In this document: positions 10,433 to 62,451 of the stretch, piece by piece | How positions within the stretch are numbered: position 1 is the stretch's first letter | Layout of the letters: the number at the start of each line of letters is the position of its first letter | Assembly: GCF_000737325.1 (NCBI RefSeq) | Contig: NZ_CP011125.1 | Span: 3,162,001 to 3,226,000, forward strand | Source of the DNA: Sandaracinus amylolyticus | GTDB taxonomy: Bacteria > Myxococcota_A > Polyangia > Polyangiales > Sandaracinaceae | Direction of reading: 5' to 3' | Length of the DNA stretch: 64,000 nt | Position numbers and translations under genes: made by a program | Notes under the pieces: generated by a model | Databases searched by the model: none | What the model saw: the letters and a program-made list of their open reading frames with translations, nothing else | What the model was told of the DNA's origin: nothing

Positions 10433-10468
10433 AGGTCTCGGCGGGAGGCGCGAGGGGGTGGGTCCGGC

Positions 10469-10726
10469 GGAGCGCCGGTCGAGGCTCGTGTGGGGCGTCG
10501 CGCGTGTCCGCGGAGCGCCGGTCGAGGCTCGTGTGGGGCTCCGCGCGCGTCCGGGGAGCGCCGGTCGAGGCTCGTGCGGGGCGTCGCGCGTGTCCGCGGA
10601 GCGCCGGTCGGGGCTCGTGCGGCGCGTCGTGCGGGTACGCGGAGCGCCGGTCGGGGCTCGTGCGGCGCGTCGCGTGTGTCCGAGGAGCGCCGGTCGAGGC
10701 TCGTCTGGCGCGTCGCGGCCGCGCGT
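10469..10726. repeat. 43-bp tandem repeat array, six copies
   Basis: Six head-to-tail units, each starting GGAGCGCCGGTCG, begin at 10469, 10512, 10555, 10598, 10641 and 10684, an exact 43-bp period. The first 13 bases and the following GGCTCGTG are nearly invariant, while the last 20 bases vary. Since 43 is not a multiple of three, it is not a coding repeat. It fills the convergent gap between the 9803 gene and lnt. Confidence 0.95.
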
Positions 10727-57276: not shown

Positions 57277-58673
57277 CGAATGTCGGGAACGCGACGCGGA
57301 CGGGGACCGCGCGAGCGGAACGTGCGAGGTCGCGTCGTCTGTGGGCCGTGTGCGCGTCGGCGTTCGCCGGTGCGTTCGCCGCGGTGCTCGTGCTCGGCGC
57401 GACGCTGCTGCTGGGTGGGCGCGCGGAGGCCACGCCGACGCGCGCGAGCCCGTACGCGAACCTCGCGATCTTCGCGCGCGCCCTCGCGCACATCGAGGCC
57501 TCGCACGTCGAGCCGCCCGATCAGGATCGGCTGATCTACGGCGCGATCAAAGGGATGGTCGAGACGCTCGACCCGCACAGCACGTTCCTCGATCCCGAGG
57601 AGTACCGGATCCTCACCAGCGACACGCAGGGTCGCTTCGGCGGCATCGGCGTGTCGATCGACGTGCGCGACGGATGGCTGACGGTGCACGGCGTCACCGA
57701 GGGCAGCCCCGCGGATCGCGCGGGCGTGATCCCCGGCGATCGCTTCCTCACGATCGACGGCTGGGCCGCGCGCGACATGCCGATCTCCGAGGCGGTGCGC
57801 CGCATGCGCGGCGATCCCGGCACCGAGGTGCGCGTGCGCATCCGCCGCGAGAACGTCGAGGACGCGGTCGAGGTCACGCTCACGCGCGAGGTGATCCACG
57901 TCGAGGCGGTCGAGGCGCGCGTGCTGCCGGATCGCGTCGTCTACGTGCGCATCCGATCGTTCCAGGGGACCACGACGGACGAGCTCCGCGCCGCGATCGA
58001 TCACGCCGCCGAGGAGACGCGCGACGCGGGCGGCATCAGCGGCGTGATGCTCGATCTGCGCGGCAATCCGGGAGGATTGCTCGACGAGGCGGTGCGCGTC
58101 TCCGACGAGTTCCTCGAGGAGGGCGTGATCGTCTCGACGCGCGCGCGCGGCGGTGAGCTCATCGAGGAAGCGCGCGCGCGGCGCGCAGGCACGCGACCGA
58201 ATTGGCCGATGGTGATCCTCGTCGATCACTTCAGCGCGAGCGCGTCGGAGATCGTCGCGGGCGCGCTCCAGGATCATCGCCGCGCGGTCGTCGTCGGATC
58301 GCGCACGTGGGGGAAGGGCAGCGTGCAGAACATCGTCGAGCTGCCCGACGGAAGCGCGCTCAAGCTGACGGTCGCGCGCTACTTCACGCCGAACGGCACG
58401 TCGATCCAGGCGCACGGCATCGACCCCGACGTCGAGGTCGAGCAGCTCGACGCGGAGACGCTCGCACGCCTGCGCCGCGAGGGCGTCGTGGTGAGCGAGG
58501 CGGTGCTCGAGGGGCACCTGTCGGGCGAGCGCGAGCGACGCACCGAGACGAGCACACCGCGCGACCAAGCGCGCACCGGGCCGAGCGAGGGCGACGCGAG
58601 CGAAGGCTCGCTCGACGACGACTTCCAGGCCCACCTCGCGCACGAGATCCTGCGCGCGATGATCTCGCGCTGA
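57264..58673 (+). CDS. Carboxyl-terminal processing protease (S41 family, CtpA-like)
   Basis: 469-residue envelope protease that trims or degrades exported proteins. Signal anchor at about 25-53 (LWAVCASAFAGAFAAVLVLGATLLLGG). Then a helical part with ARALAHIEASHVEPPDQDRLIYGAIKGMVETLDPHSTFLDP (the N-terminal S41 helix), a PDZ domain (about 125-210, GIGVSIDVRDGWLTVHGVTEGSPADRAG), and the catalytic core (DHFSASASEIVAGAL, Ser about 333, and SRTWGKGSVQN, Lys about 358). The C-terminal extension is acidic. The start is GTG at 57264, with no better ATG in frame. It is followed at once by a giant hairpin. Confidence 0.93.
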   Translation: MERSTNVGNATRTGTARAERARSRRLWAVCASAFAGAFAAVLVLGATLLLGGRAEATPTRASPYANLAIFARALAHIEASHVEPPDQDRLIYGAIKGMVETLDPHSTFLDPEEYRILTSDTQGRFGGIGVSIDVRDGWLTVHGVTEGSPADRAGVIPGDRFLTIDGWAARDMPISEAVRRMRGDPGTEVRVRIRRENVEDAVEVTLTREVIHVEAVEARVLPDRVVYVRIRSFQGTTTDELRAAIDHAAEETRDAGGISGVMLDLRGNPGGLLDEAVRVSDEFLEEGVIVSTRARGGELIEEARARRAGTRPNWPMVILVDHFSASASEIVAGALQDHRRAVVVGSRTWGKGSVQNIVELPDGSALKLTVARYFTPNGTSIQAHGIDPDVEVEQLDAETLARLRREGVVVSEAVLEGHLSGERERRTETSTPRDQARTGPSEGDASEGSLDDDFQAHLAHEILRAMISR

Positions 58674-58745
58674 AGGTGTGACCAGACCGCGCGTGGTGCG
58701 ACGAACGGCACGTCGCACCTCGCGCGGTCAGGTCACACCTTCAGC
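58669..58745 (+). terminator. 35-bp-stem hairpin terminator after ctpA
   Basis: Arms 58669-58703 and 58711-58745 pair over 35 positions with two mismatches, around a 7-nt loop. Outer parts GCTGAAGGTGTGACC / GGTCACACCTTCAGC are perfect. The ctpA stop codon TGA is inside the stem. TCTGTTTTCC follows. Far longer than the usual intrinsic terminator. Confidence 0.9.
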
Positions 58746-59306
58746 TCTGTTTTCCTGGTCGAGCATCTTCGATGCTCGACGGTGCGCGCTGCGCGCGCTT
58801 TGGTGCCACGACGCGCTCGGCGACGATGGGCGTCGCTCACGGCGTCCGTGCGCACTGCGCGATGTCGGCTGCACGGCGTGCGCACTGCGCGCGCTGTCGG
58901 CTGCACGGCGTGCGCACTGCGCGCGCTTCGGTGCCACGACGCGCTCGGCGACGATGGGCGTCGCCCACGGCTTCCATGCGCACTGCGCGCGCTGTCGGCT
59001 GCACGGCGTGCGCACTGCGCGCGATGCTCGCGCTGCGCGACGTGTGCACTGCGCGCTGCGCGCTCCACGACGCGCGCGCTGCGCGCTCCACGACGCGCGC
59101 GCTGCGCGCTCCACGACGCGCGCGCTGCGCGCTCCACGACGCGCGATGCTCGGCCGCACGATGCGCGATGCTGGGCTGCACGATGCGCGTGACGCGCGGT
59201 CGGAGCGCACCTCGTACCACCGTGTCGCTCGGCGCTCCGTGCTGTCTCTCGTGTGAGGCTCGGAGGGCGCACATCGAGAGCCTTGATCGTCGCGGTGCTC
59301 GCTCGG
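58746..59306. repeat. Complex intergenic repeat region between ctpA and the vWA gene
   Basis: 561 bp without credible genes. It contains a second small hairpin (GTCGAGCATC / GATGCTCGAC, 58758-58780). A segment beginning GGTGCCACGACGCGCTCGGC is duplicated at 58802 and 58930. GTCGGCTGCACGGCGTGCGC occurs at 58864, 58896 and 58994. Four 23-bp units with CTCCACGACGCGCGC begin at 59063, 59086, 59109 and 59132. Many GCGCGC and TGCGCA words recur. The long open frames seen in it are produced by this repetition. Confidence 0.85.
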
Positions 59307-60377
59307 ATGATGCGCGCCGTGTCCAAGCGCTTCATCCAACATCGTTCGTGGTTCGTGCTGGCGATCGCGGCAGCGGTCGTCGGCTGTGGTGGGCTCCGGG
59401 TCGCGATGGTCGACTCGGCGTACCAGCGTCCCAGCAACGTCGCCGTCTACTTCACGGTCGACACCGCGGGTGGCGATCCCGTCGGCGGCCTGCAGGCGAC
59501 CGACTTCCGCATCTACGAGGACGGGCAGCTCGTCTCGCCCACCGAGAGCGAGCAGACGATCGTCAATCCCGAGGTCGCCGCCGAGCACTACACGCTGCTG
59601 CTCGTCGACATGAGCGGCAGCGTCGTCGAGAGCGATCAGGTGCCCGCGCTGCAGCAGGCGGCGACGGAGTTCACCGCGCAGCTCGAGGGGCACCAGAAGG
59701 TCGCCGTCTACGCGTTCGACGGTGCCGAGGATCTCTACGCGATCGCCGACTTCACCTCGGGCGGCGGCGCGCAGGGCGCGATCGGGCGGCTCGGATCGTT
59801 CCGTCCTCGCGATCCGTCGACGAACCTCCACGGCGCGGTGGTGCAGGGCATCGCGGTGCTCGACGCGGAGCTCGCGCGCTCGCGCGTGCCGCTGCGCTTC
59901 GGGACGATCGTCGTGTTCACCGACGGCAGCGATCGCGCCGCGCGCATCACGCGCAACGAGATGGGGCGCGCCATCGACGCGTCGCCCTACGACATCTTCG
60001 CGATCGGCGTCGGCAGCGAGATCGACGAGGGCACCCTCGGCGCGGTCGGCCGCGACGGCTACGTGCTCGTCGAGGACACCGCCGCCGTCACCCAGGCGTT
60101 CCAGCAGATCGGCGCGCACATCCTCGCGATGACCCAGCGCTTCTACCTGCTGAGCTACTGCAGCCCGGCGCGCGCGGGCACGCACGAGGTGACGGTCGAG
60201 GCGGTCACGCCCGACGCACGCGGCTCGCTGACCTACGAGTTCGACGCGACGGGCTTCGGCCCCGACTGCAACCCGAGCCGGCCGCCGCCGTTCGCGATCG
60301 GCAACGCGCGCAACACGCGCACCCGCCCGCGCGCCGAGCGCGGCGCCCGCATCGAGGTGCGCGCCACGGCGCAGTGA
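59307..60377 (+). CDS. von Willebrand factor A-domain lipoprotein
   Basis: 356-residue predicted lipoprotein. Two ATGs at 59307 and 59310; the signal peptide RFIQHRSWFVLAIAAAVVGC has lipobox AVVGC. A short N-terminal beta-sandwich (PVGGLQATDFRIYEDGQ, resembling bacterial Ig/VWFA-adjacent domains) precedes a vWA domain (about 95-290). Its metal-ion site is DMSGS (VDMSGSVVESD, about 105), with TNLHGAVVQG and FTDGSDRAA (Asp in TDG). vWA domains bind proteins via a metal ion, often as adhesins or assembly factors. The tail is rich in Arg. Between two repeat-laden regions. Confidence 0.9.
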   Translation: MMRAVSKRFIQHRSWFVLAIAAAVVGCGGLRVAMVDSAYQRPSNVAVYFTVDTAGGDPVGGLQATDFRIYEDGQLVSPTESEQTIVNPEVAAEHYTLLLVDMSGSVVESDQVPALQQAATEFTAQLEGHQKVAVYAFDGAEDLYAIADFTSGGGAQGAIGRLGSFRPRDPSTNLHGAVVQGIAVLDAELARSRVPLRFGTIVVFTDGSDRAARITRNEMGRAIDASPYDIFAIGVGSEIDEGTLGAVGRDGYVLVEDTAAVTQAFQQIGAHILAMTQRFYLLSYCSPARAGTHEVTVEAVTPDARGSLTYEFDATGFGPDCNPSRPPPFAIGNARNTRTRPRAERGARIEVRATAQ

Positions 60378-60424
60378 TCCGCGGGTCCGGACGTTCGGAG
60401 TCCCGAATTTCGCGGTGTTTCGGG

Positions 60425-60886
60425 GTGAAGACCATCCCGAAGCGCCGCGAACGGTCATGTCGCGGGGTGATGACCCTCCGTGATCGCCGATGACGGCGGT
60501 TCGGCGGGGTGACGACCCTCCCGGATCGCCGAACACGGCGATCGGCCGGGGTGAACACCGTCGTCGATCGGCGTCCACGGCGCCGTCGCGGGGTGAACAC
60601 CGTCGTCGATCGCCGTTCGCGGCGCCGTCGCGGGGTGAACACCGTCGTCGATCGCCGTTCGCGGCGCCGTCGCGGGGTGAACACCGTCGTCGATCGGCGT
60701 CCACGGCGCCGTCGCGGGGTGAACACCGTCGTCGATCGGCGTCCACGGCGCTGTCGCGGGGTGAACACCGTCGTCGATCGGCGTCCACGGCGCCGTCGCG
60801 GGGTGAACACCGTCGTCGATCGCCGTCCACGGCGGCACCGGGCGGCGAAGACCGTGATCTCGCGATGTTCCGACCGCCGGGCGCGG
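60425..60886. repeat. 42-bp tandem repeat array, eleven copies
   Basis: Units with GTGA..ACC at the start begin at 60425, 60467, 60509, 60551, 60593, 60635, 60677, 60719, 60761, 60803 and (degraded) 60845, a strict 42-bp step. Units 4 to 10 are nearly identical (GCGGGGTGAACACCGTCGTC, then GATCGGCGTCCACGGCG or GATCGCCGTTCGCGGCG). The outer units are more diverged. Because 42 is a multiple of three, all frames stay open, but no start, codon pattern or family resemblance supports a protein. In the convergent gap between the vWA gene and mlaD. Confidence 0.95.
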
Positions 60887-60961
60887 CACGAGAGCGCCTC
60901 GCGCGGTCGGGACCACCCCGGGCGCCACGGAGGGTCGTTTCGTGGGCGCCGAACCACGACC

Positions 60962-61302
60962 GACCACCGGTCGTCGGTGGCTGCGGGTGGTCGGGACCAC
61001 GACGGACCACCGGTCGTCGGTGGTTGCGGGTGGTCGGGACCACGATGGACCGCCGGTCGTCGGTGGTCGCCGGTGGTTCGGTGGCTTCGGACCGCCGGTC
61101 GCCGGTGGTCGCGGGTGGTCGGGACCATGACGGACCACCGGTCCTCGGTGGTCGCCGGTGGTTCGAGGGCCTCGAGCCGGCGGTGTCGGCGGTCGCGGGT
61201 GGTTGGGACCACGAGGGCCCGGCGGTCGTCGGTGGTCGCTCGTGGTTTGGGACCACGACGACCGCCGCTCGTCGGTCGTGCCTGGTGGCTCGCGCGCGGC
61301 GG
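60962..61302. repeat. 42-43-bp tandem repeat array, eight copies
   Basis: Units start at 60962, 61005, 61048, 61090, 61133, 61174, 61217 and 61260, steps of 43, 43, 42, 43, 41, 43 and 43. Each has a hairpin core ACCACCG...CGGTGGT and a GGGTGGTCGGGACCAC stretch. Sequence differs from the array at 60425 but has nearly the same period. Confidence 0.93.
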
Positions 61303-61320
61303 GTGAGCGCCGCGCGGCGC

Positions 61321-62451
61321 TCACTCGGGCTGGGGCTCGGGGCGCGGCGCGGGGTCGCGCGCTTCGTCCTCGCGGATCGAGTAGCGCACCAGCGCGCGCA
61401 GGATGTCGTTGCGCTCGAGGTTGCCGGTGATGCGCTTGATGTCCTCGTAGATCGACGGATCCACGAGCAGGCCGCCGATCGTGCCGCGGCCCGCGCGCAC
61501 GTCCGCCATGACCGCGCGCAGGTCGCCGCTGATCGCCGTCAGGTTCGAGATCAGATCGCCCGCCGAGTCGCCGTAGAGCAGCTCGTGCGCGTTGCCGTCG
61601 CCGGTGCGGATGTCGCGCAGGATCGTCGCGGCCTCGCCCGCGGTGTCGGCGAGGTTCGACACCAGGCGCGTGCCCGTCTCGCCGTAGATGAGCTCGTGCG
61701 CGGTGCCGTCTCCGTCGCGGATCTCGTTGGTGATCGCGCGCACGTTGCGGGCCGTCTGCGCGAGCTCGGACGTCGCGACCTGCACCGAGCCGAGCGTGCT
61801 CTCGACGCGATCCGCGAGCTGCGGATCGCGGATGAGGCGCGGGATCGTCCCGTCCTCCTCGGCGAGCATGCGCGTGAGCTCCGCGACGTTGTGGCTGATC
61901 GCGTGGAGGTCGCGCCGGAAGTCCTCGTCGGCGAGCGTCTCGGTGAACTCGCGGACGTTCTCGACGGCGGGGCGCGCGTCCTCCATGAGCTCGCCCGCGC
62001 TCGAGAGCGCGCCGAAGATGCCGCCGGTCTCCTGGCTCGGGATCATCGCGCCCGCGGGCAGCGGCTCGCCGCGACCGGGCGAGAGATCGACGAGCATGTC
62101 GCCGAGCAGGCCCTTGCTGCCGAGCGTCGCGACGGTGCCGCCGGCGCCGGTCGCGGGATCGGTGGGCGAGGTGACGAGGTGGTGCACGTCCTCGCGCACC
62201 TCGAGCACGACCTCGAGCTCACCGTTGTCGGTGAAGTTGATGGCGGAGACGGTGCCGACCTCGATGCCCGCGAGGCGGATCGGCGATCCCGGGCGCAGGC
62301 CCGAGACGTTGGCGAACACCGTGCGGAACTCGAGCCGTGAAGCGAAGAGCGCGCTGCGGTTGCCGAGCGTGAAGACGAGCGCGGCACCGATGACGAGCGC
62401 GAGTGTGACGAAGATGCCGACCTTGAACTCGGTGGAGCGGCCTGAATTCAT
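61321..62451 (-). CDS. MlaD-type MCE-domain lipid-transport protein
   Basis: 376-residue inner-membrane-anchored periplasmic protein of the MCE family, the lipid-carrying ring of phospholipid transporters. One N-terminal helix (VGIFVTLALVIGAALVFTLG, about 11-30), then the MCE domain (FRTVFANVSGLRPGSPIRLAGIEVGTVSAI). A long helical tail (about 150-350) holds repeats ending in DGTAHELIYGE and DGNAHELLYGD. The last residues are acidic/Pro-rich. It is about twice the length of E. coli MlaD, as is common in Deltaproteobacteria. It lies 292 bp after mlaF on the same strand. The permease MlaE is not in between. Confidence 0.92.
   Translation of the reverse strand: MNSGRSTEFKVGIFVTLALVIGAALVFTLGNRSALFASRLEFRTVFANVSGLRPGSPIRLAGIEVGTVSAINFTDNGELEVVLEVREDVHHLVTSPTDPATGAGGTVATLGSKGLLGDMLVDLSPGRGEPLPAGAMIPSQETGGIFGALSSAGELMEDARPAVENVREFTETLADEDFRRDLHAISHNVAELTRMLAEEDGTIPRLIRDPQLADRVESTLGSVQVATSELAQTARNVRAITNEIRDGDGTAHELIYGETGTRLVSNLADTAGEAATILRDIRTGDGNAHELLYGDSAGDLISNLTAISGDLRAVMADVRAGRGTIGGLLVDPSIYEDIKRITGNLERNDILRALVRYSIREDEARDPAPRPEPQPE

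Follow-up and report, generated by a model that had tools for sequence, protein, structure and literature searches.

The 42-bp tandem array at 60422-60841 of the window, the 64,000-nucleotide stretch of the chromosome of the soil myxobacterium Sandaracinus amylolyticus analysed here, is probably a young, species-specific noncoding minisatellite. It would have grown through slippage or unequal recombination, in a spacer that tolerates such growth. The sole unusual part of its story is the clustering of unit lengths at about 42 bases. The array (array A) sits between two convergent genes, where the preliminary description had rightly placed it, in a spacer of 943 bp. It shares this spacer with a second array (array B). 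Both genes were named from sequence, and codon-usage gene calling found no gene between 60377 and 61321. The features of the locus are as follows.

59253..60377, + strand: left flanking gene, von Willebrand A-type (VWA-type) protein; sister ortholog 97% identical
60422..60547, no strand: left part of array A, three diverged 42-bp units with GGGGTGANGACC in common, each matching the core consensus at 27/42 positions
60548..60841, no strand: core of array A, seven near-identical 42-bp units with the consensus GGGGTGAACACCGTCGTCGATCGGCGTCCACGGCGCCGTCGC, the seventh diverging in its final bases
60953..61276, no strand: array B, tandem, period ~43 (also 85 and 128), unrelated in sequence to array A
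61321..62451, - strand: right flanking gene for an MlaD/MCE-type protein, in convergent orientation to the left one; sister ortholog 97% identical

The genome of S. amylolyticus DSM 53668 (10.33 Mb, 72% GC) was assembled from PacBio reads with a mean length of 4.67 kb (PMC5010890), which is long enough to span array A. The words 'tandem' and 'intergenic' are absent from the published genome paper (PMC5010890).

The exact 42-bp period first described for the array was confirmed. With unit starts at 60422, 60464 and so on to 60800, there are ten units and nine consecutive steps of exactly 42 bp, and the lag-42 self-identity over 60378-60886 is 0.78, compared with at most 0.39 at any lag from 10 to 129 in 200 dinucleotide shuffles. 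TRF reported a period of 42 with 6.9 core copies, 96% matches and a score of 520. Eleven copies had been proposed at 60425-60886; ten are supported, as the putative eleventh (60842-60882) aligned to the unit no better than shuffled sequence (p = 0.20), and the same was true of the 42 bp ahead of the array (p = 0.95). Agreement with the core consensus is 39-42 of 42 in units 4-9 and 37 of 42 in the right-most, tenth unit, with changes mainly in its final bases, and the divergence is mostly one-sided, on the left. The proposed expansion from the centre is consistent with the homogenised core, although of the edges only the left is clearly diverged. Several core units have variants in common, GCCGTTCG in units 5-6 and GGCGTCCA in units 4 and 7-9, and near-identical units with common variants are what local duplication gives. 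A CRISPR array was rejected, since whole 42-bp units follow one another directly and no unique spacers separate them.

In the sister species (G002) the same convergent gene pair is separated by only 78 bp and the spacer contains neither array A nor array B; neither array is therefore needed by these genes. The preliminary description had named absence in close strains as evidence against its own reading, and the absence is seen here in a comparison between species rather than strains; at this level, a conserved function at the locus is not supported. The 78-bp spacer of the sister does carry the word GGTCCAGACC twice, 40 bp apart, a pair perhaps similar to the seed from which array B arose. 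Across 400 kb of synteny, most other noncoding arrays are likewise absent from the sister or swapped for different ones, with orthologous spacers measuring, for example, 376 versus 37 bp and 488 versus 128 bp, the shorter ones being free of arrays. Upstream of the VWA-type gene, nested arrays with periods of 16-128 occupy 58773-59189, and the same spacer in the sister holds a different, 79-bp array. Another convergent spacer in the window contains an array at 10462-10717 (period 43, 5.9 copies); its orthologous spacer in the sister is 2,294 bp long with a different 41-bp repeat, and a related 43-bp array is found elsewhere in the sister genome. The array A unit itself has no second match in its own 10.3-Mb genome at E <= 1e-3, no exact 22-mer match in 84,980 species genomes and no match among plasmids, and the weak matches in relatives are short, with E of about 1e-6 to 1e-3.

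The period of array A belongs to a genome-wide regularity. We made a census of 1.6 Mb of the 10.3 Mb, with genes called by codon usage and a TRF score of at least 100, which yielded 62 noncoding and 72 coding arrays. Of the 22 noncoding arrays whose period lies between 26 and 62 bp, 16 fall at 41-43 bp (binomial p = 1.6e-13 versus a flat spread, a value that assumes independent arrays, which does not hold for a few homologous pairs), in contrast to 4 of 28 coding arrays in the same census (Fisher p = 4e-5). The noncoding set probably includes a few arrays in coding sequence that the gene calling missed, for example those at 3355863-3356688; without them the 16 would drop by one. The search for further arrays of like period, which had been suggested, returned 15-16 at 41-43 bp within the 1.6 Mb. 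Many further arrays lie near 21 or 84 bp; by autocorrelation, many of the 81-86-bp arrays hold a sub-period of ~42 bp and several others have a 21-bp base. Over 25 arrays the mean base period was 41.7 bp (sd 0.7), equal to 10.4 bp per turn over four turns, and unit lengths of three or five turns were not favoured in the census. The sister species shows the same bias (41-43 bp in six of nine noncoding arrays). In 400 kb sampled from a more distant genome there were three noncoding arrays, none near 42, and 674 kb of loci from other Myxococcota showed no peak near 42 among noncoding periods, a weak control because these are mostly metagenome assemblies and short-read assemblies may lose arrays. 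A literature search limited to titles and abstracts returned no report of such a length preference. Arrays are also enriched between convergent genes, where 19 of 93 spacers carry one compared with 34 of 655 other spacers (p = 4e-6, odds ratio 4.7), and the sister species gives the same picture, with 10 of 56 versus 9 of 355 (p = 4e-5). This enrichment fits tolerance, in that no promoter is disturbed, and also a role between convergent transcripts.

Bacterial intergenic minisatellites and VNTR loci, such as the MIRU-VNTR of mycobacteria, are the closest known counterparts. Array A resembles them in being noncoding, in having tandem units within their range of about 10-100 bp, in its homogenised core and in its poor conservation between related species, with presence differing between close relatives. 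It differs in its company, as arrays of unrelated sequence here have one preferred length in common (~42 bp, also ~21 and ~84). Plasmid iterons are direct repeats spaced by whole helical turns, as are the units of array A, which is however chromosomal and not known to lie at a replication gene, and no common word links the arrays. Like REP/BIME elements (REPs: PMC3733652), array A is intergenic, and some ~42-bp arrays of this genome have palindromes 21 bp apart, whereas array A itself lacks both a significant palindrome and high-copy dispersal. We rejected a REP/BIME assignment for array A, since the unit shows no excess dyad symmetry (consensus z = -0.1 and -0.6) and has no other match in the genome at E <= 1e-3. 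A separate family of 82-101-bp tandem units (GGAGTGCTCG...CCGGACGGGAGCGCGCG) does look REP-like; it is dispersed, has short palindromes and occurs in both species, with members at 203330, 3413426, 4506924, 7402103, 7602478, 7704577, 7713422, 8718441 and 8916076 (L073, L050, L096 and others).

Several other readings of array A were weighed. The end of convergent transcription had been suggested, with repeated hairpins halting both transcripts, and the convergent setting, together with the convergent-spacer enrichment, speaks for it. So does a subset of ~42-bp arrays with strong palindromes centred at intervals of 21 bp (z = 4.4 for the dyad autocorrelation at that distance). The ~41-42-bp arrays at 3262420, 8906134, 1306515, 8118075, 3330104 and 5805849 have a palindrome roughly every 21 bp; their sequences differ, and they could serve as chains of RNA hairpins or as sites for dimer binding. 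Array A is not one of them: two dyads per unit 21 bp apart do not describe it (z = -0.6), on neither strand do its units fold better than shuffled sequence (z = -0.2 and -1.2), and no terminator-like site was found in it. An intrinsic terminator, a stable hairpin usually with a U tract, was accordingly discarded, although Rho-dependent termination could still act here, and Rfam gave no match at the gathering score over 58600-61400. As the sister manages in 78 bp without an array, and 74 of the 93 convergent spacers are free of any, we regard a bidirectional transcription end as improbable. The suggestion of a phased binding platform or chromosome-organisation site, in which a putative protein would sit on one word per unit along the same helix face, fares no better. 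The exact 42-bp step, the mean base period of four turns and the concentration of arrays in convergent spacers are consistent with it, but array sequences are mostly unrelated and no common word is apparent, which makes a shared binding word unlikely. In addition, array A is missing in the sister species, arrays of three or five turns are not favoured though they would phase equally well, and the 10.5-bp A/T harmonic is significant neither in array A (p = 0.08) nor consistently over 15 arrays. The four-turn period first described does reflect a real genome-wide regularity, but at this locus nothing demonstrates protein binding, termination or conserved function.

The length could also have been inherited rather than re-created, in which case array A would belong, in diverged form, to a single dispersed family of ~42-bp repeats. 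Clearly homologous arrays do occur at separate loci (3330104/5805849 and 3262420/8906134), array A has a weak cousin in an 84-bp array at genome position 8410705, with which it aligns in register (score 46 versus a null maximum of 40), and the mean similarity of array pairs is slightly above the null (20.1 versus 17.4). Common descent may therefore explain part of the common length. Nevertheless, only about ten of 435 pairs reach the 99.9% level of the null and most ~42-bp arrays are singletons of unrelated sequence, so that a single family accounting for array A seems unlikely. Least credible of all is a coding sequence with 14-residue repeats: the period is divisible by three and several reading frames run through the array without a stop, but gene calling leaves the spacer empty, adjacent and similar arrays have periods of 41 and 43 that are unable to keep frame, and the sister lacks this array-bearing spacer. 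We rejected this reading on these grounds.

For the preferred reading of a young minisatellite, we envisage that 42 bp of the spacer between the two convergent genes became duplicated on the S. amylolyticus lineage, which would make array A a gain in this species rather than a loss in the sister. Its copies would then have been multiplied and homogenised, presumably via unequal recombination or replication slippage, while older and diverged units survived at the left edge. The spacer would tolerate such growth because a convergent spacer is expected to hold no promoters, and the array is probably close to neutral. Array A would then be one of many arrays of the genus with units near 21, 42 or 84 bp. 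Pure slippage predicts no preferred length, and the 42-bp peak therefore needs an extra cause, for which helical phase in duplication, common descent and selection or a bound protein are candidates. Unit length may be set by how short duplications arise, with whole double turns preferred, or by a few ancestral repeats.

Array A alone is an ordinary minisatellite. More tentatively, and against our own expectation, the genus may carry mostly unrelated noncoding arrays locked to two or four helical turns (21 bp, ~42 bp and their doubles) and gathered between convergent genes. If true, this locking would suggest that either a duplication process or a topology-related protein acts on DNA according to helical phase instead of sequence. 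The ~42-bp preference, seen in two species and not in the other Myxococcota sampled, would make it possible to study how new tandem duplications originate in bacteria, and whether their size is set by helical phase or by the supercoiling that transcription drives between convergent genes.
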